DNA from: Siphonobacter aquaeclarae
GTDB lineage: Bacteria > Bacteroidota > Bacteroidia > Cytophagales > Spirosomataceae
Direction: 5' to 3'
DNA: 64,000 bases
Assembly (NCBI RefSeq): GCF_900103285.1
Contig: NZ_FNGS01000003.1
Span: forward strand, 485,997 to 549,996
Of the stretch, positions 12,019-54,670 are shown piece by piece. A program made the position numbers and the translations under genes. Positions within the stretch are counted from its first letter, which is position 1. Every line of letters begins with the position of its first letter. The notes below the pieces were generated by a model. It had not been told where the DNA came from, did no database searches, and worked only from the letters and a program-made list of their open reading frames with translations.

Positions 12019-12088
12019 GTTTACAGTGGACGGTTTACAGTGGACAGAATAGGTCACTGCAAGCGGGAAACGACAAACTGACAACCAA
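12019..12088. repeat. heptamer-word repeat in rpsS-rplV gap
   Basis: The 14-mer GTTTACAGTGGACR occurs twice in tandem (12019-12032, 12033-12046), which is four 7-nt words. A weaker complementary, roughly 7-nt-periodic stretch (12066-12088, with ACAAACTGACAACCAAC) runs to three bases from the rplV ATG. The word type and the GACAACCAAC end recur at 54570-54670. Confidence 0.65.
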
Positions 12089-12091
12089 CAA

Positions 12092-12472
12092 ATGGAAGCA
12101 ATCGCAAAACTCAATAACGTCCCGACGTCGCCTCAGAAGATGCGTCTGGTTGCTGACCTGATCCGCGGCCAGAAAGTAAACAAAGCTCTGGCGATTCTGA
12201 AGTACCAGCCTAAGTCGGGCTCTCCGCGTCTGGAAAAGTTGCTGCTGTCGGCTATTGCCAACTGGCAGGAGAAATACGGCGAGGAGGTAAAACTGGAAGA
12301 AGCTGACCTGTTCGTAAAGACGATCTTCGTCGACGGCGGTCCCTTCCTGAAGCGCCTTCGTCCGGCTCCTCAAGGACGTGCCTACCGCGTGCGTAAGCGT
12401 TCGAATCACGTAACGCTGGTGGTAGCGAGCAATGCCAAGGCAGAAACTAAAACCGAAAACACGGAAGCGTAA
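12092..12472 (+). CDS. rplV: 50S ribosomal protein L22
   Basis: A 126-residue L22, whose beta-hairpin loop lines the exit tunnel and narrows it with L4. It starts [20 protein letters not shown]. The [16 protein letters not shown] region is the hairpin return. The C-terminus carries a short acidic/Thr tail ([10 protein letters not shown]). Confidence 0.96.
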
Positions 12473-12478
12473 CACACC

Positions 12479-13357
12479 ATGGGACAAAAAGTAAACCCCG
12501 TAGGTCTTCGTCTGGGTATTGTACGTGGTTGGGAATCCAACTGGTACGGTGGAAAGAACTTCGCTGAAAAGCTGGTCGAAGACGAAACGATTCGTAAATA
12601 CATTGCTGCCCGTATCCCGAAAGGCGCGATCTCGAAGGTGATCATCGAGCGTACGCTGAAGCGGGTTACCCTGACGATCAACACGGCCCGCCCGGGTGTC
12701 GTCATCGGTAAAGGCGGTAACGAAGTAGATAAAATCAAGGAAGAGCTGAAGAAGCTGACGGGCAAGGACGTACAGATCAACATTTTCGAGATCAAGCGCC
12801 CTGAAATCGACGCCAAACTTGTTGGCGAAACGATTGCTCAGCAGCTGGAAGCCCGGATCTCTTTCCGTCGTGCCATGAAGCAAGCCATTGCTTCTGCCAT
12901 GCGGGTAGGAGCGCAAGGGATCAAGGTTCGTCTGTCTGGTCGTCTCGGCGGTGCTGAAATGGCCCGTACCGAAGAGTACAAGGAAGGACGCATCCCCCTG
13001 CACACGCTGCGTGCGGATATCGATTACGCGATTTCCGAAGCGCAAACGGTATACGGTAAAATCGGTATCAAGATCTGGGTCTTCAAGGGTGAAGTGTACG
13101 GCAAGCGTGATCTCTCTGTAGTCAACGCTGGTCTGAACTCAGGCCTCGCTGAAGGTCGTGGCGGCTCCGATCGCGGAGATCGTCGTGGCGGACGCGGTGG
13201 AGACGATCGTGACGGTGGCCGTCGTGGCCGTCGTGACGGAGATGGTGGCGGAGACCGTGGCCGTGGTGGCAACAACAACCGTGGCGGTGCTGGTAACCGT
13301 GGCGGTGCTAACCGGGGTGCCGGTAACCGTGGCGGTGGCCAGGGAGGACGTCGCTAA
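12479..13357 (+). CDS. rpsC: 30S ribosomal protein S3 with Gly/Arg/Asp-rich C-terminal extension
   Basis: S3 lies at the mRNA entry tunnel of the 30S subunit. Residues 1 to about 222 are a normal S3 with the KH domain ([12 protein letters not shown]) and the C-terminal domain ending [11 protein letters not shown]. The remaining 70 or so residues are a low-complexity tail of [20 protein letters not shown] and [12 protein letters not shown] repeats, resembling eukaryotic RGG boxes. Total length is 292 residues against about 210-240 for most bacterial S3 proteins. The tail is in the same frame with no frameshift and ends at an ordinary TAA. Confidence 0.96.
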
Positions 13358-13415
13358 GTAGCTTGGAAGAGGGGGGCTTGTTCCCCTGCTTCAAACTCTA
13401 AAGAACTCAACGATC

Positions 13416-13841
13416 ATGTTACAACCGAGAAGAACCAAATTCCGCAAGCAGCAGAAGGGACGGATCAAGGGTCTTGCTACGCGGGGCCACGAGATTTCCT
13501 TCGGTTCATTTGCGATTAAATCGCTGGAACCGGGCCGGATTACGGCTCGCCAGATCGAAGCGGCTCGTATCGCCGTAACCCGTGCAATGAAGCGGGAAGG
13601 TCAGGTCTGGATTCGTATTTTCCCCGATAACCCGATTACCAAGAAGCCGGCAGAAGTTCGGATGGGTAAAGGGAAAGGGGCTCCCGAGTATTGGGTAGCC
13701 AACGTGAAACCCGGAACGATTCTGTTCGAATCAACCGGTGTCCCTCTGGAACTGGCTCAGGAAGCGCTGCGTTTGGCTGCACAGAAATTGCCGGTACGGA
13801 CGAAGTTTGTCGTTCGCCGCGATTATCAGGAAGCTAACTAA
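13416..13841 (+). CDS. rplP: 50S ribosomal protein L16
   Basis: A 141-residue L16, which binds near the A-site tRNA elbow and helps assemble the peptidyl transferase centre. It begins [19 protein letters not shown]. The arginine in [10 protein letters not shown] is the usual hydroxylation region in enterobacteria, though no hydroxylase gene is visible here. Length is normal. Confidence 0.97.
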
Positions 13842-13848
13842 GTGATTC

Positions 13849-13897
13849 GTTACCTGTTATCCTGTACCGGATCTCAGTCAAGAAGATAACTGATAAC
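13849..13897. repeat. short inverted repeat with 7-nt words, rplP-rpmC gap
   Basis: GTTACCTGTTATC (13849-13861) pairs with GATAACTGATAAC (13885-13897) with two mismatches. Each arm is two words spaced 7 nt apart (GTTACCT/GTTATC). It appears to be a smaller member of the heptamer hairpin family. Confidence 0.5.
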
Positions 13898-13915
13898 GCA
13901 ATTGCACCAAGGCAA

Positions 13916-14098
13916 ATGAAAATCAAAGACATTCGGGCATTGAGCACGGAAGAACTCCGGCAGCAAGTCGCCCAGGAAAAAGAAGCACTGAGCCGACTGA
14001 AGTTTGCTCATGCGATTTCTCCGATCGAAAACCCGATGCGTATTCGGACTTCCCGTAAGCTTATCGCCCGGATGATGACCGAACTTAACGCTCGCTAG
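13916..14098 (+). CDS. rpmC: 50S ribosomal protein L29
   Basis: A 60-residue two-helix protein at the tunnel exit next to L23. It begins MKIKDIRALSTEELRQQV, and LKFAHAISPIENPMRIR is the conserved loop. Normal length and position between rplP and rpsQ. Confidence 0.95.
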   Translation: MKIKDIRALSTEELRQQVAQEKEALSRLKFAHAISPIENPMRIRTSRKLIARMMTELNAR

Positions 14099-14133
14099 AA
14101 TCGCCCTGAAAAGGCACAAAGCAAATTCCGAAC

Positions 14134-14394
14134 ATGGAAGAAGTACGTAAGCTCAGAAAAGTCAGAATTGGTCGGGTGCTGTCCAGTAGCATGGACAAGT
14201 CGGTAGTGATTACCGTCGAGCGGAAAGTCAAACACCCTATCTACGGGAAATTCCAGAAGAAAACGACCAAATTGATGGTACACGACGAGAACAATGATTG
14301 TGGCGTCGGCGATACCATTAAAGTGATGGAAACCCGCCCCTTGTCCAAGAACAAGCGCTGGCGGTTGGTTGAAATCATTGAAAAAGCGAAGTAA
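14134..14394 (+). CDS. rpsQ: 30S ribosomal protein S17
   Basis: An 86-residue OB-fold protein that binds 16S rRNA early in 30S assembly. The segments [24 protein letters not shown] (here [19 protein letters not shown]) and [20 protein letters not shown] are diagnostic. It is followed by the long heptamer hairpin. Confidence 0.96.
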
Positions 14395-14407
14395 TCAGCA
14401 GTTACCT

Positions 14408-14490
14408 GTTTTCGGTTTTCGGTTTTCAGTTTTCGGTTGCGGATTCAACAGAAAACAGAAAACAGAAAACAGAAAACGGAAACTGGAAAC
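14408..14490. repeat. heptamer-word hairpin in rpsQ-rplN gap
   Basis: The left arm (14408-14438) is a run of TTTTCGG/TTTTCAG words and the right arm (14447-14477) a run of CAGAAAA words, followed by two degenerate words to 14490. The arms can form a 31-bp helix in which mismatches fall only once per 7-nt word, always at the variable word position. It sits inside the ribosomal operon between two essential genes and ends 11 bases before the rplN ATG. Confidence 0.85.
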
Positions 14491-14501
14491 TCAGCAAAGA
14501 A

Positions 14502-14870
14502 ATGCTCCAGCAAGAATCTAGATGTGGCGTAGCGGATAACAGCGGTGCCAAAGAGGTACTGGTTATCCGTGTGTTGGGTGGTACGGGCAAGCGTTATGCC
14601 TCCATCGGCGACAAAGTCGTGGTGACCGTAAAGCAGGCCCTTTCTTCTTCAAGCATGAAGAAGGGAACGGTGTCTAAAGCAGTGGTGGTTCGCACGAAAA
14701 AAGAAGTACGCCGGAAAGACGGATCATACATCCGTTTTGAAGACAATGCGGTCGTCCTTCTCAACAACCAGGACGAACCGCGCGGTACCCGGATCTTCGG
14801 ACCGGTTGCCCGCGAATTGCGTGAAAAGCAATTCATGAAAATTGTTTCGCTGGCTCCTGAGGTGCTTTAA
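14502..14870 (+). CDS. rplN: 50S ribosomal protein L14
   Basis: A 122-residue L14, located at the subunit interface and the docking site of the silencing factor RsfS in the family. It begins [19 protein letters not shown] and includes [20 protein letters not shown]. Length is normal. Confidence 0.97.
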
Positions 14871-14900
14871 TCACCCGGGTAAATCGTACGAAATCAGACA

Positions 14901-15233
14901 ATGGCAAATCAACAGCAAGTTAAACTCCACGTTCGCAGCGGAGATACCGTAGAGGTCATCGCCGGCGACGCCAAAGGCAAAAAGGGCGTCGTGAAGTCTG
15001 TCGACCGTGAGAAGCAGCGTGCAATTGTCGAAGGTGTCAACTTCGTCAAGAAACACGTAAAGCCTTCTGCGACCAATCCTCAGGGAGAAATCAAGGAAAT
15101 CGAGAGCCCCATTCACCTCAGCAACCTGAAGGTAGTGGATCCGAAATCCGGCGTTGCTTCCCGGACCGGCCGCAAGCTGAACGAAAAGGGCAAGTCCCAG
15201 CGCTACAGCAAGAAGAGCGGAAACTTCATCTAA
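14901..15233 (+). CDS. rplX: 50S ribosomal protein L24
   Basis: A 110-residue L24 with an N-terminal KOW motif ([19 protein letters not shown]) that initiates 50S assembly at the 5' domain of 23S rRNA. The segment [20 protein letters not shown] is typical. A GC-rich hairpin follows the stop. Confidence 0.96.
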
Positions 15234-15235
15234 TC

Positions 15236-15264
15236 GCAGAACGGCCGGTTTCCGCCGGCCCTGC
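15236..15264 (+). other. intercistronic hairpin, rplX-rplE
   Basis: GCAG (15236-15239) and GGCCGG (15243-15248) pair with CCGGCC (15255-15260) and CTGC (15261-15264). No T-run follows directly, so it is more likely an mRNA processing or stability element than a terminator. Confidence 0.5.
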
Positions 15265-15276
15265 AATTGTTTTATT

Positions 15277-15309
15277 CGTGGGTCGGAAATCCACAAACCA
15301 TTATTCTCA
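15277..15309 (+). promoter_or_regulatory. repeated leader box before rplE
   Basis: CGTGGGTCGGAAATCCACAA ends 19 bases before the rplE ATG and can fold as GTGG/CCAC. An almost identical box precedes rplR (17359-17391), also after a GC hairpin and also before an ATGGCAA start. Confidence 0.55.
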
Positions 15310-15864
15310 ATGGCAACTCCTCGGTTAAAAGAAAAGTACCTCAACGATGTAGTATCGGCGTTGAAAGACAAGTTCCAGTACGATTCCATCATGCAGGTAC
15401 CGAAGCTGCAGAAGATCGTCATCAACAAAGGTATCGGTGCAGCCGTAGCGGATAAGAAGCTGGTTGACGTAGGCGTGGAAGAACTTTCCATCATCTCCGG
15501 TCAGAAAGCAATCGCTACGTTCTCCAAGAAGGCTATCTCGAACTTCAAACTTCGGGAAAACATGCCGATCGGAGCGAAAGTAACGCTGCGCGGTGACAAG
15601 ATGTACGAATTCCTGGATCGTCTGACGGCGGTTGCGCTCCCCCGGGTGCGTGACTTCAAAGGGGTAAGCGACAAAGGCTTTGACGGCCGCGGCAACTACA
15701 CCCTCGGCGTGAAGGAGCAGATCATCTTCCCTGAAATCTCCATCGAAAAGGTGCAGAAGATCTCCGGGATGGACATCACCTTCGTAACCTCGGCTCAGTC
15801 GGATGCTGAAAGCCTCGAATTGCTCAAGGCTCTGGGTATGCCCTTTGCTGGACAGAAAAAGTAA
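15310..15864 (+). CDS. rplE: 50S ribosomal protein L5
   Basis: A 184-residue L5, which binds 5S rRNA and contacts P-site tRNA and S13. It starts [15 protein letters not shown]. Segments [17 protein letters not shown] and [16 protein letters not shown] are diagnostic. Length is normal. Confidence 0.97.
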
Positions 15865-15867
15865 TAA

Positions 15868-15913
15868 TTGATTCCCCGCTACTTCGGCTCCGAAAAGGGC
15901 GGGGACCAATCAT
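15868..15913 (+). other. intercistronic hairpin, rplE-rpsN
   Basis: TGATT and CCCCGC (15869-15879) pair with GCGGGG (15899-15904) and AATCA (15908-15912), with a small asymmetric bulge. There is no T-run. Confidence 0.45.
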
Positions 15914-15922
15914 AACAAAAAA

Positions 15923-16192
15923 ATGGCAAAAGAATCAGTCAAAGCAAGAGAGCGGAAACGCGAGCGTCTGGTAGCGAAATATGCAGCTAAGCGCAAAGCC
16001 CTGAAGGAAGCCGGTGACTATGAAGGTCTCGACAAACTCCCCCGCAACGCTTCCCCCGTACGGCTCCACAACCGTTGCAAGCTGACAGGTCGTCCCAGAG
16101 GTTACATGCGGAAATTCGGCATCAGCCGGGTTACCTTCCGCCAAATGGCTTCTGATGGAAAAATTCCCGGCGTAACAAAATCGAGCTGGTAA
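15923..16192 (+). CDS. rpsN: 30S ribosomal protein S14, zinc-free type
   Basis: An 89-residue S14 of the head of the 30S subunit. It is the longer form without the zinc ribbon: only one cysteine is present ([20 protein letters not shown]), where the zinc form has two CxxC pairs. The C-terminus [10 protein letters not shown] is typical. A promoter for the next genes begins directly after its stop. Confidence 0.97.
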
Positions 16193-16194
16193 TT

Positions 16195-16226
16195 TTTGGT
16201 GTATCCATTTTGATTCTCTAATTTTG
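16195..16226 (+). promoter_or_regulatory. internal promoter upstream of rpsH
   Basis: TTTG (16195-16198), a 20-nt spacer and TAATTTTG (16219-16226) match the Bacteroidota -33/-7 consensus exactly. It starts 3 bases after the rpsN stop and lies 42 bases before the rpsH ATG, and would give the second half of the cluster its own transcription start. Confidence 0.75.
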
Positions 16227-16267
16227 CGAGCCGTTTTGAGCGGCCCGTAGCAAAATCATATTCTTTC

Positions 16268-16663
16268 ATGGATCCGATTGCAGATTACTTGACCCGTCTG
16301 AGGAATGCCATCAAGGCTCGCCACAGAATCGTCGAGATCCCGGCTTCCAATCTCAAGAAAGAGATCACGAAGGTGCTCTTTGAGAAAGGCTACATTCAAA
16401 GCTATAAGTTTGACGATGAGGCTTCCGTACAGGGAACCATCAAAGTCGCCCTGAAGTACAACCCCCTCACGAAGCAGTCTGCTATCGTGAAACTGACCCG
16501 CATCAGCAAGCCGGGTCTCCGGAAGTACACAGGTTCCAAAGAACTTCCGCGGGTATTGAACGGACTGGGTATTGCCATTCTGTCTACCTCGAAGGGCGTT
16601 ATGACGGACAAAGAGGCGCGCACCCTCAACGTAGGTGGCGAAGTTCTTTGCTACGTATATTAA
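16268..16663 (+). CDS. rpsH: 30S ribosomal protein S8
   Basis: A 131-residue S8, a primary 16S rRNA binder and, in enterobacteria, the repressor of the spc operon. It begins MDPIADYLTRLRNAIKARHR. The C-terminal motif ILSTSKGVMTDKEAR is diagnostic. It is the first gene after the internal promoter. Confidence 0.97.
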   Translation: MDPIADYLTRLRNAIKARHRIVEIPASNLKKEITKVLFEKGYIQSYKFDDEASVQGTIKVALKYNPLTKQSAIVKLTRISKPGLRKYTGSKELPRVLNGLGIAILSTSKGVMTDKEARTLNVGGEVLCYVY

Positions 16664-16672
16664 TTAACACAC

Positions 16673-16720
16673 GGAATCAGCGGAGGGTAATCTGACCACT
16701 GAAAACCTCCGCTGATTTCC
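16673..16720 (+). other. long intercistronic hairpin, rpsH-rplF
   Basis: GGAATCAGCGGAGG (16673-16686) pairs with CCTCCGCTGATTTCC (16706-16720) with one bulged base, followed by TTTT. It could attenuate transcription within the operon. Confidence 0.6.
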
Positions 16721-16737
16721 TTTTAACATCCAGTGAC

Positions 16738-17295
16738 ATGTCACGTATTGGAAAAAAAATCATCACCCTGCCGGCCGGCGTAACCGTTGACGTAGACAAG
16801 AATAACCTGGTGACTGTAAAAGGTCCGAAGGGTACGCTGTCTCAGGCGGTTGATCCGGATATCTCGGTAGAGATCGAAGGTGGCGAGTTGCAAGTGGTTC
16901 GCCCGACTGAACAAAAGCGTCACAAGGCGCTGCACGGTCTGTACCGTGCCCTGATTAACAACATGGTAGTAGGCGTAAGCCAGGGCTACCGTACCGAGAT
17001 GGAAATCGTCGGGGTAGGTTACAAGGCTTCCAACCAGGGCAATATCCTGGAGCTGGCATTGGGCTACTCACACAGCATTTTCGTCGCTATCCCGACTGAA
17101 CTGAAAGTGACGACGGCGATGGAAAAAGGCCAGAACCCGAAAGTCGTTCTGGAAGGTATTGACAAGCAACTCATCGGCCAGGTCGCTGCCAAGATCAAGT
17201 CTCTCCGCAAGGTTGAGCCTTACAAAGGCAAGGGTATCCGCTTCACGGGTGAATTCGTCCGTCGTAAGGCTGGTAAAGCGGCTGGTAAGAAATAA
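16738..17295 (+). CDS. rplF: 50S ribosomal protein L6
   Basis: A 185-residue L6 near the factor-binding site of the 50S subunit. It begins MSRIGKKIITLPAGVTV. The second-domain segment PYKGKGIRFTGEFVRRKAGK is conserved. Length is normal. Confidence 0.97.
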   Translation: MSRIGKKIITLPAGVTVDVDKNNLVTVKGPKGTLSQAVDPDISVEIEGGELQVVRPTEQKRHKALHGLYRALINNMVVGVSQGYRTEMEIVGVGYKASNQGNILELALGYSHSIFVAIPTELKVTTAMEKGQNPKVVLEGIDKQLIGQVAAKIKSLRKVEPYKGKGIRFTGEFVRRKAGKAAGKK

Positions 17296-17303
17296 ATGGT
17301 TTG

Positions 17304-17333
17304 AGCGCGTGAGGAAGTGGTTTCTCACGCGCT
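17304..17333 (+). other. intercistronic hairpin, rplF-rplR
   Basis: AGCGCGTGAG (17304-17313) and CTCACGCGCT (17324-17333) form a perfect 10-bp stem with a 10-nt loop. No T-run follows. Confidence 0.6.
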
Positions 17334-17358
17334 TATGCCCAACACACACATATCATCC

Positions 17359-17391
17359 GTGGGTCGGTAATCCACAAACTATTTTATTACA
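17359..17391 (+). promoter_or_regulatory. repeated leader box before rplR
   Basis: CGTGGGTCGGTAATCCACAA at 17359-17378, continuing AC-T-A-T-T, differs from the rplE box at one base of 20. It lies 13 bases before the rplR ATG and behind a GC hairpin. Confidence 0.55.
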
Positions 17392-17739
17392 ATGGCAAGT
17401 GCAAAAGATTCCCGTCGGCTTCGCATCAAGCGGAGCATCCGCTCTAAAGTAGCCGGCACACCCGGACGTCCCCGTTTGACGATCTTCCGTTCAAACAAGG
17501 GTATTTACGCCCAGGTCATCGATGACGAAGCAGGTAAGACCGTTGCATCGGCGTCTTCATTCGAGCTCGGAGCTCAGGGTAACAATGTCGAGGCTGCCAA
17601 GCAGGTAGGCTTGAAGGTAGCCGAAAAAGCGAAGGCTGCCGGTATCGAATCAGTGGTATTTGACCGGAATGGTTACCTGTACCACGGTAAAGTGAAAGCA
17701 CTCGCAGACGGAGCCCGCGAAGGTGGCCTTCAATTCTAA
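17392..17739 (+). CDS. rplR: 50S ribosomal protein L18
   Basis: A 115-residue L18, which binds 5S rRNA with L5 in the central protuberance. Segments [20 protein letters not shown] and [20 protein letters not shown] are diagnostic. The rpsE start follows 11 bases later. Confidence 0.97.
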
Positions 17740-17750
17740 TTCTAAGAACC

Positions 17751-18263
17751 ATGCAAACGAACAGACCGACTAAGTATAACGAGTCAGATTTGAAGGAACG
17801 TGTTGTAGCCATCAACCGGGTTGCGAAAGTAGTAAAGGGCGGTCGCCGCTTCAGCTTCTCTGCGATTGTGGTTGTTGGTGACGGCAAAGGAGTGGTAGGT
17901 TACGGACTGGGTAAGGCCAACGAAGTAACGGACGCCATTGCCAAAGGAATCGAAGACGCCAAGAAAAATATCGTTCAGGTACCCCTGCTGAAGCACACGG
18001 TACCCCACGATATGGAAGGTAAATTCTCCGGTGGTTTCGTTCTGCTCAAGCCGGCTGCTCCCGGTACGGGAGTTATCGCAGGTGGTGCTATGCGTGCCGT
18101 CCTCGAAAGTGCCGGTATCCGTGACGTATTGGCGAAATCGAAAGGTTCTTCGAACCCGCACAACGTAGTCAAAGCCACGGTTGACGCCCTGCTGAAAATG
18201 CGGGCACCGCACCAGGTAGCCCGTCAGCGCGGCGTGAAACTGGCAACGGTATTCAACGGATAA
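17751..18263 (+). CDS. rpsE: 30S ribosomal protein S5
   Basis: A 170-residue S5, involved in decoding fidelity and mRNA unwinding. It has the double-stranded RNA-binding-like N-terminal domain ([20 protein letters not shown]) and the [21 protein letters not shown] segment. Length is normal. Confidence 0.97.
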
Positions 18264-18279
18264 GTCATCAGATTCCTGG

Positions 18280-18304
18280 TTCCGGCTGGTTCGCCAGCCC
18301 GGAA
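18280..18304 (+). other. UUCG-capped hairpin, rpsE-rpmD gap
   Basis: TTCCGGCTGG (18280-18289) pairs with CCAGCCCGGAA (18294-18304, one bulged C) around a TTCG tetraloop. It is a very stable intercistronic RNA hairpin without a T-run. Confidence 0.6.
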
Positions 18305-18321
18305 CAGAAAACAACGAAGAA

Positions 18322-18501
18322 ATGGCAAAGGTTAAAATTACGCAGGTTCGCAGCACGATCTCTCGTCCGGAGAACCAGAAGCGTACCATCAGTGCCCTTG
18401 GTTTGGGTAAAATCAATCGGAGTGTGGAAATCGAGCTGAATCCTGCCATTGCCGGGATGATCCGCAAGGTGAACCACCTCGTTCAAGTGGAAGAAATCTA
18501 A
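18322..18501 (+). CDS. rpmD: 50S ribosomal protein L30
   Basis: A 59-residue L30. The frame reads [19 protein letters not shown] and continues [18 protein letters not shown], ending [10 protein letters not shown] with TAA at 18499-18501. The RSxI and GLGKIN segments are diagnostic. Position between rpsE and rplO is standard. Confidence 0.96.
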
Positions 18502-18548
18502 GAAACTCGGTGGGCACTTCAGGTGTTTCACGCAGAACCAATACGACA

Positions 18549-33206: not shown

Positions 33207-33237
33207 AAAAAGGCTGCTGAAAGGCAGCCTTTTTTTT
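33204..33237 (+). terminator. rho-independent terminator after carA
   Basis: A stem of AAAAAAAGGCTGC with GCAGCCTTTTTTT around a short loop overlaps the carA stop codon and ends in a T-run. A second, word-based hairpin follows immediately. Confidence 0.9.
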
Positions 33238-33241: not shown

Positions 33242-33303
33242 GGGGCAGAGGGCAGAGGGCATGGGACGAGCGACCCCATGCCCTCTGCCCCACGCCCCTC
33301 TGC
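33242..33303. repeat. G-rich heptamer-word hairpin after carA
   Basis: The left arm (33242-33265) is made of 7-nt words GGGGCAG, AGGGCAG, AGGGCAT. Its last 16 bases pair perfectly with 33275-33290, and the right arm continues with further CCC-rich words to 33303, two bases from the end of the convergent DUF4249 gene. Confidence 0.85.
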
Positions 33304-42181: not shown

Positions 42182-42360
42182 TTATAGGCTTTAGGCAATA
42201 AGCTATAGGCTTTAAGCAATATACGGCAGACGAGCCTGCCTGCATATCTTTCCGGAAGGCTGTCTGCTTTAAGTCTGGTGCCAGTTTCCAGGTCCGGAAT
42301 ATAAAAAGCTGGTTTCTTTCGCAGCCCTTTGCTTATCGCTTAGAGCCTACTGCTTAAAAC
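42182..42360. repeat. TARGCNN heptamer-word inverted repeat between kup and rhodanese gene
   Basis: The left block (42182-42220) has 7-nt words TATAGGC, TTTAGGC, AATAAGC, TATAGGC, TTTAAGC. The right block (42329-42360) carries complementary words (GCTTA, GCCTA at 7-nt spacing). About 110 nt of non-repetitive sequence separates them. The words match those at 52126-52183. Confidence 0.75.
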
Positions 42361-42364
42361 CTCC

Positions 42365-47903: not shown

Positions 47904-47904
47904 G

Positions 47905-48306
47905 CTATTCGGAAACCAGTTTGATCCAGCGTTCGAGGTTGTAATACGTTGTGACGCGGGCGATTTTTCCGTCTTTTACTTCCAGGAAAGCACCGGCGGG
48001 CAGTACATAGGTCTGATTATGCGCAGGGGGCAGGCCCGGCTCGCCTTTTTTGTAAATACCGTTGACGACGAACTCAACCGCCACCCGGGTATCGGTGGGT
48101 TCGGAGAGAAAGACCATATCGGTCAGGGTCTCATCGTACGAATCGTCCATCTTGCCCAGAAACTCGCGGAAGAGCTCAAGACCTACGCGGGTATCGCCCT
48201 GGTTGGCTTCATGCCGGATTTGGGGATGAAGCAGCGAGAGCATGCCTTCCCAGTTTTTCTGGTTGAAAAATGAATAGTAGTCCTGAACAATCTGAAGTGC
48301 TGACAT
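47905..48306 (-). CDS. SnoaL-like/NTF2-fold protein, ketosteroid-isomerase-related
   Basis: A 133-residue cone-fold protein beginning MSALQIVQDYYSFFNQKNWE and ending TTYYNLERWIKLVSE. It fits the SnoaL-like polyketide-cyclase/ketosteroid isomerase-related family. Enzymatic or ligand-binding function is unknown. A much longer frame upstream in the same register runs through the neighbouring SRPBCC and kinase-like genes and is spurious. It is the first gene of the operon with GNAT and nitrilase. Confidence 0.82.
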   Translation of the reverse strand: MSALQIVQDYYSFFNQKNWEGMLSLLHPQIRHEANQGDTRVGLELFREFLGKMDDSYDETLTDMVFLSEPTDTRVAVEFVVNGIYKKGEPGLPPAHNQTYVLPAGAFLEVKDGKIARVTTYYNLERWIKLVSE

Positions 48307-48414
48307 GATCAAAAATGCGTAAATATCCGGATACTGACTCGCAGGCGGGTGTACCCCCGATGGCGAAAATAACCTTTGACCCCTTTTTCCGGTTGTATAA
48401 AAATAAAAAAGCCA

Positions 48415-48915
48415 ATGTCCCGGACCTTTTCCCTCCGAACTGTCCAGAACCTGCCGATATCCCCGGCAGAAGCCTGGGACTTCTTCAGCCGGCCCGACAA
48501 CCTTGTCCGGATTACGCCGCCGGGGATGGGTTTCAGCATCCGCAGTCATCATCACGGCGACCGGATGTACCCGGGGCAGCTTATCGAGTACACTGTCACC
48601 CCCTTTCCGGGAATGCCGTTGTACTGGATGACCGAAATCACGCATGTATCGGAGCCGTTTTATTTTGTCGACGAGCAACGCTTCGGCCCGTATGCCCTCT
48701 GGCATCACCAGCATCATTTCCGGGAGCGGGAGGGGGGCGTGGAAATGACGGATATTGTGCACTACCGGCTGCCTTTCGGCATATTCGGTGTGCTGGGCGG
48801 CTCCTTCGTCCGGAAAAAACTGGAAGCTATTTTCCGCCATCGCTACGACGTCACTACGCAACTCTTCGGCGCCTGGCCGGAGCAGTCGTGCAGTATCCGC
48901 TTTTTCCGTTCCTGA
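48415..48915 (+). CDS. SRPBCC-family ligand-binding protein
   Basis: A 166-residue START/Bet v1-like protein beginning MSRTFSLRTVQNLPISPAEA. Features are AWDFFSRPDNLVRITPPGMG at the N-terminus, a central LIEYTVTPFPGMPLYWMTEI segment and the family-typical YRLPFGIFGVLGGSFVRKKL before the C-terminal helix ending FRHRYD. This subgroup is often annotated as cyclase/dehydrase-like or cell-division-inhibitor-like without proof. It is divergent from the SnoaL-like gene. Confidence 0.83.
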   Translation: MSRTFSLRTVQNLPISPAEAWDFFSRPDNLVRITPPGMGFSIRSHHHGDRMYPGQLIEYTVTPFPGMPLYWMTEITHVSEPFYFVDEQRFGPYALWHHQHHFREREGGVEMTDIVHYRLPFGIFGVLGGSFVRKKLEAIFRHRYDVTTQLFGAWPEQSCSIRFFRS

Positions 48916-48956
48916 ACAAACAGGATCGGGAGGCGGGTCCTGCCCCGCGGAATGAC

Positions 48957-48964
48957 TACTTTTG
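48957..48964 (+). promoter_or_regulatory. -7 element before lipid-kinase-like gene
   Basis: TACTTTTG is an exact TAnnTTTG match ending 16 bases before the ATG at 48981. There is no clear -33 element. The implied leader would be very short. Confidence 0.45.
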
Positions 48965-48980
48965 CCTTCTTTTTCCTGAG

Positions 48981-49859
48981 ATGATGACTGAGACGACAGC
49001 CTGGTTTGTGGTGAACCCTGTTTCCGGGGTACTGCCGGCAGCCCGGCGAAAAGATATACTCGATTACATTCATACCCAACCCGGCGTACGGTGCCTGGAA
49101 ACCCATTCTGCCGGGCATGCGACGGAGCTTGCCAGGCAGGCCGTTTCCGAAGGTATCCGGAAGGTAATCGCCGTTGGCGGGGACGGAACCGTAAACGAAG
49201 TAGCGAAGGGACTGACCGGCAGCGATACCGCGCTGGGCATCGTCGGGATAGGTTCCGGAAACGGGCTGGCCCGGCACCTGAAGCGCTCTCTGAAGCCGTT
49301 TCAGGCAATTGATGAAGCACTGGCAGGTACCTCCTCCCGCCTCATTGATACCTGTTACCTCGATGATATTCCCTTTTTCTGTACAGCCGGTATCGGGTTC
49401 GACGCCTACGTAGCCGACGCCTTTTCCCGGCAGAAAACCAGGGGTCTTTCCACCTATGTGAAGACCACGCTGTCTTCTTTCCAAACCTACCGGCCGGGGC
49501 AATATGTCATCGAAGGCGCCGGGGAAAACCGGCAGGTAGAGGCTTTTTCGCTGACCTTCGCGAACGCCGGACAATATGGAAATGACGCGTGGATCGCACC
49601 GGAGGCCCGTCTCGACGACGGGCAGATCGACGTATCGATCCTCCGGCCGTTCCCGTTTTTCTATGCACCGGTATTGGGCGCACGCCTGTTCGGGAAGTCT
49701 ATTGCAGCGTCGCCGTACCGTGACCGGTTGAGCGGGGAAGCGTTTTGCCTTTCATCCGACCGGAACCTGCTGCTGCATTACGACGGAGAGCCGCTCCAAC
49801 TCGACCGCAAATCGGTGCGCATATCCATCCGTCCGCTCAGCCTGAGAATCATCGCCTAG
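48981..49859 (+). CDS. diacylglycerol/sphingosine kinase-like (YegS/DgkB-type) protein
   Basis: A 292-residue lipid kinase of the DAGK catalytic-domain family. The nucleotide site VGGDGTVNEVAKG (residues 65-77) and GIGSGNGLARHL (89-100) are present. The beta-sandwich C-terminal domain carries YDGEPLQLDRK. It phosphorylates a lipid, identity unknown. An in-frame ATG at 48984 is an equal start. Its stop codon overlaps the stop codon of the convergent helicase gene. Confidence 0.87.
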   Translation: MMTETTAWFVVNPVSGVLPAARRKDILDYIHTQPGVRCLETHSAGHATELARQAVSEGIRKVIAVGGDGTVNEVAKGLTGSDTALGIVGIGSGNGLARHLKRSLKPFQAIDEALAGTSSRLIDTCYLDDIPFFCTAGIGFDAYVADAFSRQKTRGLSTYVKTTLSSFQTYRPGQYVIEGAGENRQVEAFSLTFANAGQYGNDAWIAPEARLDDGQIDVSILRPFPFFYAPVLGARLFGKSIAASPYRDRLSGEAFCLSSDRNLLLHYDGEPLQLDRKSVRISIRPLSLRIIA

Positions 49860-51232
49860 CGGCGACCGCTTCGCCTGGGTCCCGAGGGTCGTCCGCCTTT
49901 TTTCGGAGGACCGCCCGCAGGTTTGCCGGTGCTTCTTCCGGCAGGTTTCCCGCCGGAGCGGCTGGTACCCGGGCGACCGGAATGCGGCCGTGCGTGTTTC
50001 TTTTCGTGAAACGCGCCTTTAAAGGTGGGATCTTCCTTTTTCCGCTGACTATCCACTTCCCGGAGCATATCCTGCCGCTCATCGAAGGGCGTATTTTCGA
50101 TTTCCACTTCGTCAGGAAGATTATCCCGGGGGATTTCCTGGCCGATCAGCTTTTCAATTTTCGCGATGTGGTACTCTTCGGCCATCGTCACGAAGGTGAT
50201 CGCCTCGCCGGTATGGAAGGCGCGGCCTGTCCGCCCGATGCGGTGCACGTAGTCTTCGTAAACCAGCGGCACGTCGAAGTTGATGACGTGTGTTACTTCC
50301 TGAATATCAATACCACGGGCGGCGACGTCTGTCGTCACCAATACCCGGATTTCGTTGTCGCGGAAGGCCTGCATGGCGTTGATCCGCGTATTCTGGCCTT
50401 TGTTGGCGTGGATAACGCGGACCTTGTCTTCCGGTACCACCTTCCGGGCGATGAACTTGTAAATGTTGTCGGCAACTTCTTTCGACCGGACAAAGACCAT
50501 GACTTTTTGCAGGGCTTCGTCCCGAAGCATGTGGCTCAGGAGGTGGATTTTGGTCTTGAGGTTGGGAACTTCGTAGATCAGTTGCGCTACGGTCTCTGCC
50601 GCCGTTGCCTGGGGCGTAACCTCAATCCGCGTCGGAAATTCCAGAAACTCGTGCGAGAGTGATTCGACCTTGGCCGGGAAGGTAGCCGAGAAGAGCAGGT
50701 TTTGCCGTTTCGTTGGAATAACCTCCAGAATGGCCCGGATCTGAGGCATGAAGCCCATATCCATCATCTTATCGGCTTCGTCGAGTACCATCACCTTCAA
50801 TTCTTTCGTGATGATTTCCCCGCGGAGGTAAAGATCCATAAACCGCCCGGGAGTACTGACAAGAATGTCTACGCCGGCGTTCAGGGCCTCGATTTGCGGC
50901 TTGGGCCCCAGGCCGCCGTAGAGGCAGAGAACCCGCAGGTCGGTGTATTTGCCGAGAGACGTCATCGCCTCGCCGATCTGCATCACCAGCTCCCGCGTGG
51001 GGGCGAGGACGAGGCAGCGCGGAGCTTTCCCTTGGGCAAACTTGATTTTATAGAGCAGGGGAAGGGCATAGGCGGCCGTTTTACCGGTGCCGGTCTGCGC
51101 GATACCGAGTACATCATGCCCGGCCAGCACCAGCGGAATAGCCTGCTGCTGGATTTCGGTGGGGGTCTGGTACCCGGCTTCTTCCACCGCATTGAGAAGC
51201 TGGCGGTTCAGCTTAAAATCTTCGAACGTCAT
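49856..51232 (-). CDS. rhlE: DEAD-box RNA helicase, RhlE-like
   Basis: A 458-residue ATP-dependent RNA helicase. Motifs in order: Q motif (TPTEIQQQAIP), I (AQTGTGKT), Ia (PTREL), GG, Ib (TPGR), II (DEAD), III (SAT), V (TTDVAARGID) and VI (HRIGRTGR). The tail after about residue 385 is basic and Gly/Pro/Arg-rich (SRSGGKPAGRSTGKPAGG), probably binding RNA. It likely acts in ribosome assembly or RNA turnover. The start at 51232 (MTFEDFKLNRQLL) fits the family better than the in-frame codon at 51250. Confidence 0.93.
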   Translation of the reverse strand: MTFEDFKLNRQLLNAVEEAGYQTPTEIQQQAIPLVLAGHDVLGIAQTGTGKTAAYALPLLYKIKFAQGKAPRCLVLAPTRELVMQIGEAMTSLGKYTDLRVLCLYGGLGPKPQIEALNAGVDILVSTPGRFMDLYLRGEIITKELKVMVLDEADKMMDMGFMPQIRAILEVIPTKRQNLLFSATFPAKVESLSHEFLEFPTRIEVTPQATAAETVAQLIYEVPNLKTKIHLLSHMLRDEALQKVMVFVRSKEVADNIYKFIARKVVPEDKVRVIHANKGQNTRINAMQAFRDNEIRVLVTTDVAARGIDIQEVTHVINFDVPLVYEDYVHRIGRTGRAFHTGEAITFVTMAEEYHIAKIEKLIGQEIPRDNLPDEVEIENTPFDERQDMLREVDSQRKKEDPTFKGAFHEKKHARPHSGRPGTSRSGGKPAGRSTGKPAGGPPKKGGRPSGPRRSGRR

Positions 51233-51472
51233 ACGTTTTGTCGGAAACAACGCTGCGAAGTTCGGAAAAACCGTTGAGAGACAGGTATAAACGAGGGGAA
51301 ATGACCGGCTGCTCGAACAGGAAATGCGTTGTCTTTCGGGAGGATTACTTTGCCGTACGGCGTTGGGCCCTCTGACTCAGTGCTATGCGTGCGGCAGAAT
51401 CCGGAAAAACGAAAGTCGCAAAACCGAGCTCGTTCGAGAAGAAAAGTTGTACTTTAGTGAAACTTTACGGCT

Positions 51473-51835
51473 ATTGATTGTTTTTGTGGAAGAGAAAGAC
51501 AAAAACGTGCAGTCCTTTTTTACAAGGAGTATTTTCAGGAATTCTTTTCGAAACAGCGCCCCAAAGTTCAGGACAAGATTATCTGGACGCTAACGCTTCT
51601 GGAAGAGCTTTCCGTTATTCCGGAGACCTACCTGAAACATATTGAGAATACGGATGGATTGTACGAGCTGAGAATTCAGCAAGGCAATGACATTTTTCGA
51701 ATTTTCTGTTTTTTCGACGAGGGGCGGCTGGTTATCCTGGTGAACGGTTTCCAAAAGAAGACACAAAAAACGCCTCGAAAAGAGATCGAAAAGGCTTTAA
51801 AGCTCAAGGAAGAATATGAAAGCGAAAGAAAATAA
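51473..51835 (+). pseudogene. HigB/RelE-type toxin with disrupted or non-standard start
   Basis: The frame ending at TAA 51833-51835 encodes a clear RelE/HigB-like toxin body: ERQKRAVLFYKEYFQEFF, then KIIWTLTLLEELSVIPETYL, KHIENTDGLYELRIQQGNDI, FRIFCFFDEGRLVILVNGFQ and KKTQKTPRKEIEKALKLKEE. No ATG, GTG or TTG exists between the upstream stop (TGA at 51458) and this body. The nearest candidate is ATT at 51473. A GTG at 51486 lies in another frame (VEEKDKN) and would join the toxin frame if one A were added to the run of five A residues at 51501-51505. It is therefore a frameshifted gene, a frameshifting gene or one with an ATT start. Its end overlaps the antitoxin gene by 20 bases. Confidence 0.7.
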
Positions 51836-52121
51836 TCTCACAACGCTCGACCAGTTCAAAGACAGGAACTATGGAAAAAGAGGAACCGCAAAGCGCGAGG
51901 CGTTGGAAGAAGGATACGAACCCTTCAAAATAGGGGCTCTGCTTCATGACGCCCGCCTCGAAAAAGGACTTACTCAGCAGGAACTGGCCGAAAAAACCGG
52001 CACGACGAAATCCTATATTTCGAAAATCGAAAACAATGTCAAGGAAGTTCGCCTCTCGACGCTTCAAAAAATTGTCGAAATAGGATTGGGGGGTGAATTA
52101 CAGGTCGCTATTAAATTGTAG
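51816..52121 (+). CDS. XRE-family antitoxin, HigA-like
   Basis: A 101-residue protein with a Cro/CI-type helix-turn-helix at about residues 40-92 (IGALLHDARLEKGLTQQELA, EKTGTTKSYISKIEN). In HigBA systems this protein binds the toxin and represses the operon. It follows the toxin gene and overlaps it by 20 bases, the typical toxin-first HigBA order. It ends immediately before a word-based hairpin that probably terminates the operon. Confidence 0.88.
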   Translation: MKAKENNLTTLDQFKDRNYGKRGTAKREALEEGYEPFKIGALLHDARLEKGLTQQELAEKTGTTKSYISKIENNVKEVRLSTLQKIVEIGLGGELQVAIKL

Positions 52122-52125
52122 GTTG

Positions 52126-52190
52126 AGCTATAGGCTTTAAGTTATAAGCTTTAGGCCGGGACCGACCGCTTATAGCTTAAAGCCCTTTTT
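52126..52190 (+). repeat. TARGCNN heptamer-word hairpin after antitoxin gene
   Basis: The left arm (52126-52156) has words TATAGGC, TTTAAGT, TATAAGC, TTTAGGC. GCTTTAAGTTATAAGC (52134-52149) pairs with GCTTATAGCTTAAAGC (52168-52183) at 15 of 16 positions. A T-run follows at 52186-52190, giving a terminator form. Words are shared with 42182-42360. Confidence 0.8.
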
Positions 52191-52250
52191 CCATACCTCA
52201 TATTCCCTTTTTTAACAGTTTTGTGCTGTTTTCCATCAACAAGCCTTTTT

Positions 52251-54569
52251 ATGCGTCATCGTTACCTGTTGTATGCCCTTCCCTTCTGTTTTGCCTCCGC
52301 CGTGGCGCAGAAGAAACCGGTTCTGACCGTCGAGAAAATCATGCAGGATCCGAAATGGATCGGCACCGCCCCTTCCAATCCGTACTGGGCGGAAGACGGT
52401 TCCGGCGTGTATTTTTCCTGGAACCCGAACAAGGCCAAGGGCGACTCCCTCTATCTGTACGACCTTCGCTCGAAGAAAATCGCCAAAGTGGCAGACCGCC
52501 GCAACCTCCCCGCCGAAGGGGGCGTGTACAACCGGGCCCGCACCGTCAAGTTGTATGAAAAGAACGGAGATCTGTTCTGGCTCGATATTCCCACCCGCCA
52601 GGCGCGGCAACTGACCAATACCGTCGAGGCTGAAACCAACCCAACCTTCAGCGGAAGCGAGGCACAGGTAATTTTCCGCCGCGGACTGAATCTCTTTTCG
52701 ATGAACCTGGCTTCGGGAGAAGTAGCCCAGCTGACCCAGTTTATCACGGGCGCCAAAAAGGCTGATCCGAAGGCAAACGAGCAGGAAAAATGGCTGAAGA
52801 CCGATCAGCTCGCTATGTTCGATATCCTGAAAGAGCGTGCCGACAAAAAGAAAGACGCCCAGTCCATTGCCAAAGCCGAGCAGCCGAAGCGGCCGAAGGA
52901 GATATACCTCGACGACCGCTCCCTGCAATACCCGTCCTATTCTCCGGACGGCAGGTTCGTCACCTTCCAGCTGGTGAAAGCGGCTTCCGGGGCCAAAAGT
53001 ACCATCGTCCCGAACTATGTAACCGAATCCGGATTTACGGAGGATATTCCGGCGCGGACGAAAGTCGGCGCACCGGCCTCGTCCTATTCCTTCTTTGTGT
53101 ATGATATTCAGAAAGATACGGTTCGGGAAGTACCTGTGAAAGATATTCCGGGGATACGGGACGTTCCGGCCTATATCGCGGAGTATGGAAAGAAAATCAA
53201 GCCTGCCGACCGGCCGGTGCAGTTCTTCGGGCCATCCTGGTCGGAAGACGGAACCTATGCCGTCGTCATTGTGCGTTCTCAGGACAACAAGGACCGCTGG
53301 CTCCTTCGCCTCAATCCGGCAACGCTGGAACTGACGCCGATCGACCGTCTCCGGGACGAAGCCTGGGTCGGCGGGCCGGGCAGCAACTTCCTCACGTGGA
53401 TCGACAGGGAGACTATTCTCTTTCATTCTGAAGCGACGGGATACTCACATCTCTATTCTTACAACCTCCGTTCCGGGGAAAAGAAACAGCTCACGAGCGG
53501 GTCGTTTGAAGTGCAGGTAGCACGGCTGTCGAACGACAAAAAGAACATCTATTTCCAATCGAACGAGGTACACCCCGGCGAGCAGCACTGGTACCGGATG
53601 GCGGTCACCGGCGGCGAGCGCGTCCGGCTGACGACGCAGTCCGGCGCCAATGACGTGACCTTATCGCCGGATGAATCCAAACTCCTCATCCGCTATTCCG
53701 CGCCTACGAAGCCCTGGGAACTATACCTCCAGGACAATCGTCCCAATGCCGCTCCCGAGAAAATTACCGAGTCGCTGACGGAGGAATTCAAGGCATACCC
53801 CTGGCGGGAGCCGCAGGTGATTACCGTGAAAGCACGCGACGGAAAAGACATCTACGCCCGCCTGTACATCCCGAAAAAGAAAAACGGTGCGGCCGTGATC
53901 TTCGTCCACGGCGCCGGATACCTGCAAAACGCCCACAAGTGGTGGAGCCAGTACTTCCGGGAGTATATGTTCCATAACCTGCTGGTAGACAAAGGCTATA
54001 CGGTTATCGATATGGACTACCGCGGCTCGGCGGGGTATGGGCGCGACTGGCGTACCGGTATCTACCGGTTTATGGGGGGCAAAGACCTCGACGACCACGT
54101 AGACGGTGCGAAATACCTGACGCAAAAGCTCGGCATCGATCCGAAACGCATCGGCATGTACGGTGGCAGCTATGGCGGCTTCATGACCCTCATGGCGCTC
54201 TTTACCCAGCCCGGAGTATTCAAAGCCGGCGCAGCGCTGCGACCGGTGACCGACTGGGCCGCCTACAACCATCCCTACACGGCCAATATCCTCAACCAGC
54301 CCCAGGACGATTCCCTGGCCTACCGCCGCAGCTCGCCCATTTACCATGCCGCGGGGCTGAAGGACAACCTCCTGATCTGCCATGGAATGGTGGATGTAAA
54401 CGTTCATTTCCAGGATGCTGTGCGTCTTTCCCAGCGCCTCATCGAACTCCGCAAGGAAAACTGGGAGCTCGCCGCCTACCCGATGGAAGACCACGGCTTC
54501 GTCGAACCGACCAGCTGGATGGATGAGTATAAGCGGATTTTGAAGTTATTTGAGGACAAATTGAGATAA
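52251..54569 (+). CDS. exported S9-family prolyl oligopeptidase-like peptidase
   Basis: A 772-residue serine peptidase of family S9 (dipeptidyl-peptidase/acyl-peptide-hydrolase-like). A signal peptide covers residues 1-19 (FASAVAQ). A beta-propeller with WD-like SPDG-type repeats (YPSYSPDGRFVTFQ) is followed by an alpha/beta hydrolase domain with S640 (GGSYGG), D715 (MVDVNVHF) and H748 (EDHGF). It probably degrades peptides in the periplasm. The frame extends to 52221, but the start at 52251 is the one that begins the signal peptide cleanly. Confidence 0.92.
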   Translation: MRHRYLLYALPFCFASAVAQKKPVLTVEKIMQDPKWIGTAPSNPYWAEDGSGVYFSWNPNKAKGDSLYLYDLRSKKIAKVADRRNLPAEGGVYNRARTVKLYEKNGDLFWLDIPTRQARQLTNTVEAETNPTFSGSEAQVIFRRGLNLFSMNLASGEVAQLTQFITGAKKADPKANEQEKWLKTDQLAMFDILKERADKKKDAQSIAKAEQPKRPKEIYLDDRSLQYPSYSPDGRFVTFQLVKAASGAKSTIVPNYVTESGFTEDIPARTKVGAPASSYSFFVYDIQKDTVREVPVKDIPGIRDVPAYIAEYGKKIKPADRPVQFFGPSWSEDGTYAVVIVRSQDNKDRWLLRLNPATLELTPIDRLRDEAWVGGPGSNFLTWIDRETILFHSEATGYSHLYSYNLRSGEKKQLTSGSFEVQVARLSNDKKNIYFQSNEVHPGEQHWYRMAVTGGERVRLTTQSGANDVTLSPDESKLLIRYSAPTKPWELYLQDNRPNAAPEKITESLTEEFKAYPWREPQVITVKARDGKDIYARLYIPKKKNGAAVIFVHGAGYLQNAHKWWSQYFREYMFHNLLVDKGYTVIDMDYRGSAGYGRDWRTGIYRFMGGKDLDDHVDGAKYLTQKLGIDPKRIGMYGGSYGGFMTLMALFTQPGVFKAGAALRPVTDWAAYNHPYTANILNQPQDDSLAYRRSSPIYHAAGLKDNLLICHGMVDVNVHFQDAVRLSQRLIELRKENWELAAYPMEDHGFVEPTSWMDEYKRILKLFEDKLR

Positions 54570-54670
54570 GTTTACGGTTTTCGGTTTATAGTTTTCAGTT
54601 GTTGGAAGGCAGATGTTTACCGCGCGAAAACTGTAAACCGAAAACTGTAAACCGAAAACCGACAACCAAC
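54570..54670. repeat. GTTTWCRG heptamer-word hairpin between S9 peptidase and aminotransferase genes
   Basis: The left arm (54570-54605) has words such as GTTTACG, GTTTTCG, GTTTATA, GTTTTCA. The right arm (54627-54670) has the complementary words AAAACTG, TAAACCG, AAAACTG, TAAACCG, AAAACCG. A 24-nt stretch pairs with two mismatches, each at the variable word position. It ends GACAACCAAC two bases before the next ATG, as at rplV. Confidence 0.82.

Follow-up and report, generated by a model that had tools for sequence, protein, structure and literature searches.

The closest precedent for the word-built hairpins considered here is the set of paired tandem-repeat sites of Geobacter metallireducens. 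The hairpins lie in a 64,000-nucleotide stretch of Siphonobacter aquaeclarae (positions 485,997 to 549,996 of contig NZ_FNGS01000003.1; the window), and they comprise an element of 9-nt words with the core TCTGTG (TCTGTGNNN) and arrays of 7-nt words. The G. metallireducens sites are inverted pairs of tandem repeats of GTTGCTYN (four repeats), TCTCCGTS[Y] (three) and MTYCTGA (five), and the passages of the 2009 paper that treat them interpret the pairs as predicted global-regulator sites, with IHF/HU proposed (PMC2700814). Like the S. aquaeclarae repeats, they are 7-9-nt tandem repeats on opposite strands at variable distance, with tens of sites in one genome and none identified in G. sulfurreducens. 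The architecture of the TCTGTG hairpin matches the three-repeat inverted pairs, represented by class 2 with its three TCTCCGTS[Y] repeats. Unlike it, these pairs use another core word and belong to one species, the likeness being one of described architecture, and the passages of PMC2700814 that describe them contain no analysis of arm covariation or mobility.

Repetitive extragenic palindromes (REPs) of the GTAG/CGTC type are placed at gene ends, in convergent and unidirectional gaps. The sections of the REP literature drawn on here add that some genes for REP-associated tyrosine transposases (RAYTs) are flanked by other inverted repeats and that CGTC REPs have no dedicated transposase (PMC3733652). 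TCTGTG hairpins resemble these REPs in being palindromic, high in copy number, patchy among species and near 3' ends, and in S. aquaeclarae they share the REP placement downstream of genes in convergent and unidirectional gaps. They differ in having three 9-nt words per arm and a length of about 66 nt instead of 20-40 bp, with no tag and no RAYT linkage found.

Heptamer repeats of TAACTGA occur in Beggiatoaceae, Cyanobacteria and Bacteroidetes, also within ribosomal protein operons, and work cited in the same source proposes that such arrays arise by slippage (PMC4679880, in the parts compared here). At position 13849 of the window, GATAACTGATAAC contains a complete TAACTGA unit and, in register with it, part of another; both sets of repeats are present in ribosomal protein operons, and in both some relatives are without arrays. 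The described TAACTGA repeats are direct (169 sets, of which one is indirect, in one genome), whereas those of the window form opposed pairs in several vocabularies. An initial sequence-only reading of the window suggested that its hairpins may be an undescribed repeat class. That they are wholly undescribed is not supported, since heptamer arrays have been described (PMC4679880) and inverted tandem-repeat pairs were catalogued in G. metallireducens in 2009 (PMC2700814), as far as the relevant parts of these papers go. For the TCTGTG hairpin family itself, no match was found among the open-access PMC titles and abstracts listed, with subscription journals and supplements outside that scope, and the same listings contained no hairpin of three words per arm that spans phyla and has covarying arms. 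PMC4666352 concerns triplex motifs, and PMC2267715 has no match for the terms looked up.

Nine-nucleotide and seven-nucleotide words

The window is part of a 6.19-Mb genome in 19 contigs, labelled G000, which was compared with five congeners (G001-G005). The sequence-only reading assigned at least nine intergenic sites of the window to a single class of hairpins whose words recur between loci. The recurrence is borne out genome-wide by counts far above chance: two-word TCTGTGNNN has 432 matches, three-word TARGCNN 504 and three-word GTTTWCN 256, while the reversed-pattern controls each give 0. The single class is rejected on array length, in which the 9-nt words behave unlike the 7-nt words. 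Of the TCTGTG arrays in gaps of S. aquaeclarae, 85 have three words, 5 have two and none is longer, and 50 single words represent background; the 432 two-word matches, taken with 206 three-word matches, fit mostly three-word arms. TARGC arrays contain 2-9 words and GTTTWC arrays 2-12. The nine sites split into a 9-nt element of fixed architecture and 7-nt arrays.

Repeated 5-mers in 785 gaps of a 1.264-Mb sample reach 4.6 per kb at period 7 and 4.3 at period 9, against a background of 0.9, 1.0 and 0.9 per kb at periods 6, 8 and 10 (periods 6-10 were tried), and the top period-9 words are all pieces of CACAGA and its neighbours. Twenty of the pieces in this sample of the 6.19 Mb were chosen for TCTGTG matches, so density is inflated and gap-type counts are possibly affected. 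Gene calls came from a simple script based on codon usage, which makes the gap classes approximate. Arm matching separates the two word lengths in the same direction, by a comparison that is insensitive because TCTGTG itself scores just 0.939 within loci versus 0.885 between them; the corresponding values are 0.840 versus 0.827 for TARGC and 0.897 versus 0.835 for GTTTWC, a modest excess.

The TCTGTG element has a predominantly three-word architecture, with three words per arm, about 66 nt and an AT-rich loop, and its arms covary. Its NNN letters vary between loci yet agree between arms. Among 40 hairpins of this genome that match the constant letters exactly, the set used for both placement and covariation, the arms are identical at the NNN letters in 33, compared with 4.25 expected from shuffled partners (maximum 12 in 5000 shuffles), and NNN differences stand at 0.35 within hairpins versus 2.77 between them. 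Identity is also high in a Parachlamydiaceae set (22 of 28; 7.3 expected) and in the chlamydial genome JABDEO (14 of 17; 7.7 expected). In 8 of the 28 Parachlamydiaceae hairpins, the arms continue to match for 8-32 nt outside the words. Arm-matched NNN letters constitute a natural record of how hairpin arms stay equal.

A larger set of 46 elements from this genome, which allowed up to two mismatches per arm, shows between-arm differences at 4 of 828 constant letters and 19 of 276 NNN letters. Fourteen NNN words differ between arms, and in 12 of these both forms are in the common vocabulary (at least 4 counts). Nine of the 14 are one letter apart and five are two letters apart; for pairs drawn at random from the vocabulary, differences of one, two and three letters would make up 34, 44 and 22%. 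Whole-word swapping between arms is not proven by these figures, and rewriting at the word level is ambiguous because the nine one-letter differences are also explained by point mutation.

Two individual loci show further features of the arms. At L097:10720-11110 there are three tandem units, each with a TCTGTG hairpin, in which the NNN words differ between units and arms and the spacers appear near-identical by eye. The first 800,000 nucleotides of contig C7 in this genome contain 322 N, and matches break at 349741-350064 (L018, C7:349742-350063), between two pairs of TCTGTG arms; the N stretch is perhaps a scaffold gap at repeats.

Gene ends and genome distribution of the TCTGTG hairpin

TCTGTG elements in this genome lie at 3' gene ends. 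The 40 sampled hairpins include 22 in convergent gaps, 13 in tandem gaps, 2 in divergent gaps and 3 at edges or in called genes, where the gap totals are 129 convergent, 506 tandem and 134 divergent. Of the 37 hairpins placed in gaps, 22 are convergent, against a share of 129 in 769 for gaps of this type (odds ratio 8.6, p 2e-9). Enrichment at convergent gene ends, which the sequence-only reading proposed to test, is thus seen for TCTGTG in this genome. All 13 tandem-gap copies lie closer to the stop of the gene upstream than to the start of the gene downstream. Of the 28 hairpins in the Parachlamydiaceae set, 9 are convergent, 10 tandem and 3 divergent, with 21, 73 and 19 gaps of these types.

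A terminator stem is present within 16 nt of 7 of the 13 tandem copies, versus 5-6% of random points. An intrinsic terminator is a hairpin followed by a T-tract, and this order is found on either strand in 8 of the 40 TCTGTG hairpins; T-tracts before the hairpin number 13 on each strand. Because T-tracts precede the hairpin more often than they follow it, most copies are not themselves canonical terminators. A canonical terminator is found in 9 of 22 convergent gaps with the hairpin versus 53 of 87 word-free convergent gaps (p 0.10).

Three-word TCTGTG arrays number 206 in this genome and 0 in the five congeners and in 31 other genomes of the family; in the order they are few and occur in 2 of 22 genomes. 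The exact pattern of the full hairpin has 78 copies here and none among 394 further genomes sampled from the class, and no single TCTGTG arms were found in the five congeners. A scan of about 85,000 species genomes for the full hairpin gave at least 64 stretches. Among the matches listed, the carriers by record title are Parachlamydiaceae, other Chlamydiae, Simkania, Acidobacteria, Terriglobia, Gemmatimonadetes, Planctomycetota, a PVC-group bin, a Verrucomicrobia bin, Thioalkalivibrio and Bacteroidota bins (Chryseobacterium, Bacteroidaceae); carriers other than S. aquaeclarae are mostly metagenome bins, so an individual contig may carry the wrong title.

Fourteen of the listed carriers have 1-34 copies per genome, and the two Bacteroidota bins have 2 and 1. 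The class to which the Parachlamydiaceae genome belongs has three carriers among 116 genomes, with copy numbers of 34, 2 and 1, and the one-copy genome is a bin titled Verrucomicrobia (L144) that is placed in this class. The hairpin is distributed as patchy high-copy bursts. Single genomes of unrelated phyla contain dozens of copies with one core word, one period and one usual number of words, and their sampled relatives have few or none; this has the look of a mobile or horizontally shared system.

Phage carriage of the hairpin was considered and rejected, as viral contigs contain 0 hairpins. Direct three-word TCTGTG arrays are frequent in viral contigs (at least 120 stretches), and 3 viral contigs carry GTTTTC hairpins. 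Two carrier stretches are of separate interest. The Parachlamydiaceae-titled L146 has a TCTGTG hairpin at 4083-4147, which occupies the gap preceding a secY-like gene within a ribosomal protein operon (names by eye). The Terriglobia-titled L148 contains five TCTGTG hairpins in 2.3 kb (5495-7744), including two pairs 109 bp apart.

Mobility, congener gaps and rival explanations

Miniature inverted-repeat transposable elements (MITEs) are marked by terminal inverted repeats and target-site duplications. The TCTGTG hairpin can ride a transposon of this type: in JABDEO, it is the core of a MITE-like unit with terminal inverted repeats like GGCCTTGTTCACCTTT and 8-bp target duplications, which, allowing one mismatch, are seen at 10 of 16 units (mean 0.85 and maximum 4 in 300 permutations). 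One of the 17 JABDEO hairpins is without recognisable unit ends. The bare hairpins of S. aquaeclarae are unlike MITEs in that they have no target duplication and their flank conservation ends after the first base or two. The stretches with the MITE-like units of the chlamydial genome are L107, L111, L119, L126, L131, L133, L139, L140, L143, L145, L149, L155, L160, L161 and L163. An autonomous copy with a gene between hairpins was sought at C7:102.8-104 kb, L139 and L142 and set aside, as the genes there look like ordinary host genes by eye, with no family search run.

Window positions 1-20000 and 38500-57500 were compared with the five congeners and are largely collinear. For extra TCTGTG sites, flanking genes were located in the congeners and 40 stretches were fetched, which allowed 10 of 41 gaps to be paired, L088 and L098 being ambiguous pairs; terminators in congener gaps were judged by eye. 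Three of the ten pairs (C7:102739, window 3176 and L094) have a terminator in the congener and only the TCTGTG hairpin in S. aquaeclarae. At the window gap of 3187, the congener side consists of a terminator-like hairpin in G001 and G004, the only pairable congeners. At C7:771473 and L085:14174, congeners have terminators and S. aquaeclarae has both terminator and hairpin. At L085:12092, G001 has a GTTTGAA word hairpin and S. aquaeclarae a terminator plus TCTGTG element. The divergent gap at C7:103849 contains two hairpins in S. aquaeclarae and none seen in four congeners, and at C7:359972 the G001 gap is 51 nt without a visible terminator. Terminator replacement as a rule is rejected on these data, which comprise 3 of 10 paired gaps and a convergent terminator deficit that is not significant. 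Gaps in which the terminator of one species has as its counterpart a lone hairpin in a second species offer a direct test of whether the elements can take over transcription ends.

The explanation slightly favoured here is that two systems are superimposed, a REP-like mobile TCTGTG hairpin and heptamer arrays made by slippage. The hairpin would be a small non-autonomous mobile element that works like a REP and is dispersed by a trans-acting factor. It would arrive horizontally, multiply to tens of copies in one lineage and settle at 3' gene ends, where insertion may be least harmful. Settled hairpins would often adjoin the T-tract of an intrinsic terminator, and some would be the sole hairpin of a convergent gap. 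The near-constancy of the TCTGTG words suggests recognition by some factor, which is presumably what keeps them constant. The NNN letters would be free to drift, and the fact that they stay matched, along with the arms that match 8-32 nt past the words, suggests equalisation by template switching across the hairpin, most likely in replication or copying. The heptamer arrays would be products of slippage, often in opposed pairs, that are tolerated between a stop codon and the next gene. A further proposal is rather doubtful: the three-word hairpin as the substrate of an unrecognised mobility or 3'-end system shared horizontally across phyla, with a protein or RNA component that reads three 9-nt words per arm, copies via a single-stranded intermediate without target duplication, equalises the arms and changes the words.

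Several observations weigh against the mobile hairpin and its fixed architecture. Target duplications at 39 hairpins of this genome and 28 of the Parachlamydiaceae set do not exceed chance (lengths 3-6, 8 and 9; offsets 0-3) and so give no evidence that the bare hairpin transposes. Among the 10 of 41 gaps that could be paired, none gave a clean contrast of a filled and an empty site with identical flanks. No mover was found, as tandem TCTGTG words lie within 450 bp of 1 of 20 RAYT (Y1) loci and single words near 2 more. Convergent excess is missing in JABDEO (1 convergent, 9 tandem and 1 divergent of 17) and in a mixed set from other genomes (2, 10 and 3 of 23), and the arms of the mixed set are mostly imperfect, with identical NNN letters in 2 of 23 (0.9 expected). 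The association with terminators is weak in convergent gaps (6 of 22 versus 10-23%). Word counts in the two chlamydial sets are 56 three-word and 3 two-word, and 34 three-word and 6 two-word; the scarcity of shorter arms at chlamydial and other loci is no evidence for a fixed number because the search pattern demanded three words per arm. Arms of other length exist, for example five words in one Simkania arm. Among the heptamers, the insensitive method gives TARGC arms nearly the same matching inside a locus as across loci.

A somewhat unlikely alternative is that TCTGTG hairpins are bidirectional 3'-end structures, either terminators or protectors of mRNA 3' ends, which are maintained by selection and whose words are binding sites of a lineage-specific RNA- or DNA-binding protein. 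Their location in convergent gaps and at 3' ends in this genome, the near-invariance of the constant words, the three paired gaps in which a terminator-like hairpin of the congener gives way by eye to a sole TCTGTG hairpin, and the somewhat lower frequency of canonical terminators in convergent gaps with the hairpin are consistent with such a role. It fits poorly with the T-tracts, which directly follow 8 of 40 hairpins and more often precede them, with the canonical terminator that 9 of 22 convergent gaps also keep, and with the five congeners, all of which manage without the element. It is improbable that all the word hairpins arose as by-products when terminator hairpins underwent replication slippage and template switching, that no mobile element is involved and that mutational bias accounts for the shared words. 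Slippage accounts well for the heptamers, whose array length is variable and whose period 7 is enriched; the opposed arrays around a terminator at C7:701900, the vocabulary swap at 13849 and the roughly ten GTTGATA units of G004 versus one in G001 all fit it. For TCTGTG this explanation is disfavoured, because several phyla share the core, the 9-nt period and the arms of three words and none of the sampled relatives has them.

Mobilisation of the hairpin as a REP by a RAYT (Y1 HUH) transposase is disfavoured and very improbable. The placement is REP-like, this genome has one Y1 gene, and Y1 matches were found in 11 of 14 other carriers searched. Y1 genes are likewise present in G002-G004, all without the TCTGTG hairpin, and none were found in the carriers G066, G068 and G072. 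The proximity of tandem words to a single one of the 20 Y1 loci leaves a RAYT unsupported as the mover. GTAG/CGTC tags are not concentrated at the hairpin feet: 2 of 40 hairpins have one within 10 nt of a foot, and 4 of 40 have one in a control interval further out. The two chlamydial sets give 0 of 28 and 0 of 17, with controls of 1 and 0. The single Y1 transposase gene of S. aquaeclarae, at C18:329412-329756 (L169), has a GACCCCGAAGGGGTC palindrome pair just downstream, and the two are possibly an ordinary RAYT/REP pair.

Heptamer arrays and the sites of the window

The heptamer arrays are best explained as slippage products of the described kind. Their vocabularies at the seven heptamer sites are GTTTWCN, TARGCNN, GGGCANN and GTTATCA, and a variable number of tandem 7-nt units was found for TARGC and GTTTWC, the two covered by the genome-wide count. 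The 504 three-word TARGCNN matches of S. aquaeclarae compare with 0 in the five congeners. The 256 of GTTTWCN compare with 26-122 per congener, and this word is present in 12 of 59 genomes searched. Period-7 repeated 5-mers reach 9.0 per kb in G002, 8.0 in G004, 2.8 in G003, 1.5 in G001 and 1.0 in G005. At C7:701900, a TARGC pair flanks a bidirectional terminator, and at C7:771473 G004 has about ten GTTGATA units versus one in G001.

Vocabularies turn over between species. In the L16-L29 gap (13849), S. aquaeclarae, G002, G003 and G005 have GTTATC words, and one sister pair, G001 and G004, has ATTTGAA words. Drifted GTTTTC-type words are present in all five congeners in the S19-L22 gap (12019; fold z -1.9, -0.9 and -1.3 in the three tried) and in the S17-L14 gap (14408; z -2.9 to -5.2 in the four tried), where the outer flanks are conserved and the arms rewritten. 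No congener has words in the 42182 gap. In the 33242 gap, the five congeners have a terminator without a word hairpin, and S. aquaeclarae has a terminator and a GGGCANN hairpin. The gaps at 7689, 52126 and 54570 could not be paired with gaps of the congeners. The proposal that the repeats move or are rewritten between sites finds partial support: movement or expansion is indicated for TCTGTGNNN and TARGCNN, with hundreds of matches here, 0 in the five congeners and gaps that are filled here and have just a terminator or nothing in congeners, and rewriting is seen at the level of the locus between L16 and L29. Simple vertical descent, the outcome set against that proposal, describes 12019 and 14408, and it does not describe TCTGTG or TARGC.

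The nine sites of the window are collected in Table 1. A gapless scan for inverted repeats of at least 14 bp found 9 in the window, 4 of them periodic, and 20 dinucleotide shuffles gave 0-2 each with 0 periodic. Five of the nine named sites are in this list, those at 3187, 7689, 33250, 52133-52184 (16 of 17, not scored periodic) and 54570; the remaining four (12019, 13849, 14408 and 42182) are imperfect inverted repeats. The words of the 7689 hairpin start at 7690, 7699 and 7708, and those of its other arm at 7731, 7740 and 7749. The gaps of the seven heptamer sites were folded and scored against shuffles. Folding is strong at 14408, modest at 12019 and 42182, and not significant at 13849 in this genome (z -0.6); the orthologues of 13849 give z -2.1 in G001, -3.7 in G002 and -3.8 in G003. 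Words are thus found at all nine sites named as word-built inverted repeats, a strict inverted repeat at five, and no significant fold at 13849 in S. aquaeclarae. The window has 0 Rfam matches at the gathering score.

Table 1. Word-built repeats of the window and an adjoining terminator (positions are those of the window; z is folding against shuffles)
Feature	Position	Setting	Arm match	Folding
TCTGTGNNN hairpin, 3 words per arm, 12-nt loop	3187..3252	convergent gap, open reading frame 2103-3176 (+) / trehalase gene 3254-4840 (-)	26/27	
TCTGTGNNN hairpin, 3 words per arm, 13-nt loop	7689..7755	convergent gap, open reading frame 6833-7657 (+) / TerC-family gene 7777-8589 (-)	27/27	
Drifted GTTTACN-type heptamer repeat	12014..12091	between ribosomal protein S19 and L22 genes (Pfam)		z -2.4
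GTTATC / GATAAC (TAACTGA-type) heptamer inverted repeat	13842..13915	between L16 and L29 genes		
GTTTTCR heptamer hairpin	14408..14490	between S17 and L14 genes		z -6.2
Canonical intrinsic terminator	33207..33237	directly 5' of GGGCANN word hairpin		
GGGCANN heptamer hairpin	33250..33290	convergent gap, carbamoyl-phosphate synthase small-chain gene / DUF4249 gene	16/16	whole gap z -9.0
Two opposed TARGCNN arrays (5 + 4 words), 113-nt core	42185..42356			z -2.1
TARGCNN hairpin	52131..52184	upstream of S9 peptidase gene		z -4.4
GTTTWCR heptamer hairpin	54570..54652	between S9 peptidase and DegT-family genes	25/27	z -6.7

Two other repeats of contig C7 in this genome were noted. At 651710-652355, TARGC arrays and near-identical cores form tandem units of about 189 bp. 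In the gaps that start at 94176, 218822 and 423493, another dispersed repeat of about 100 bp has arms of the form GGTGGTTGAGC..CGTCGAAACC and complement, with a variable centre.

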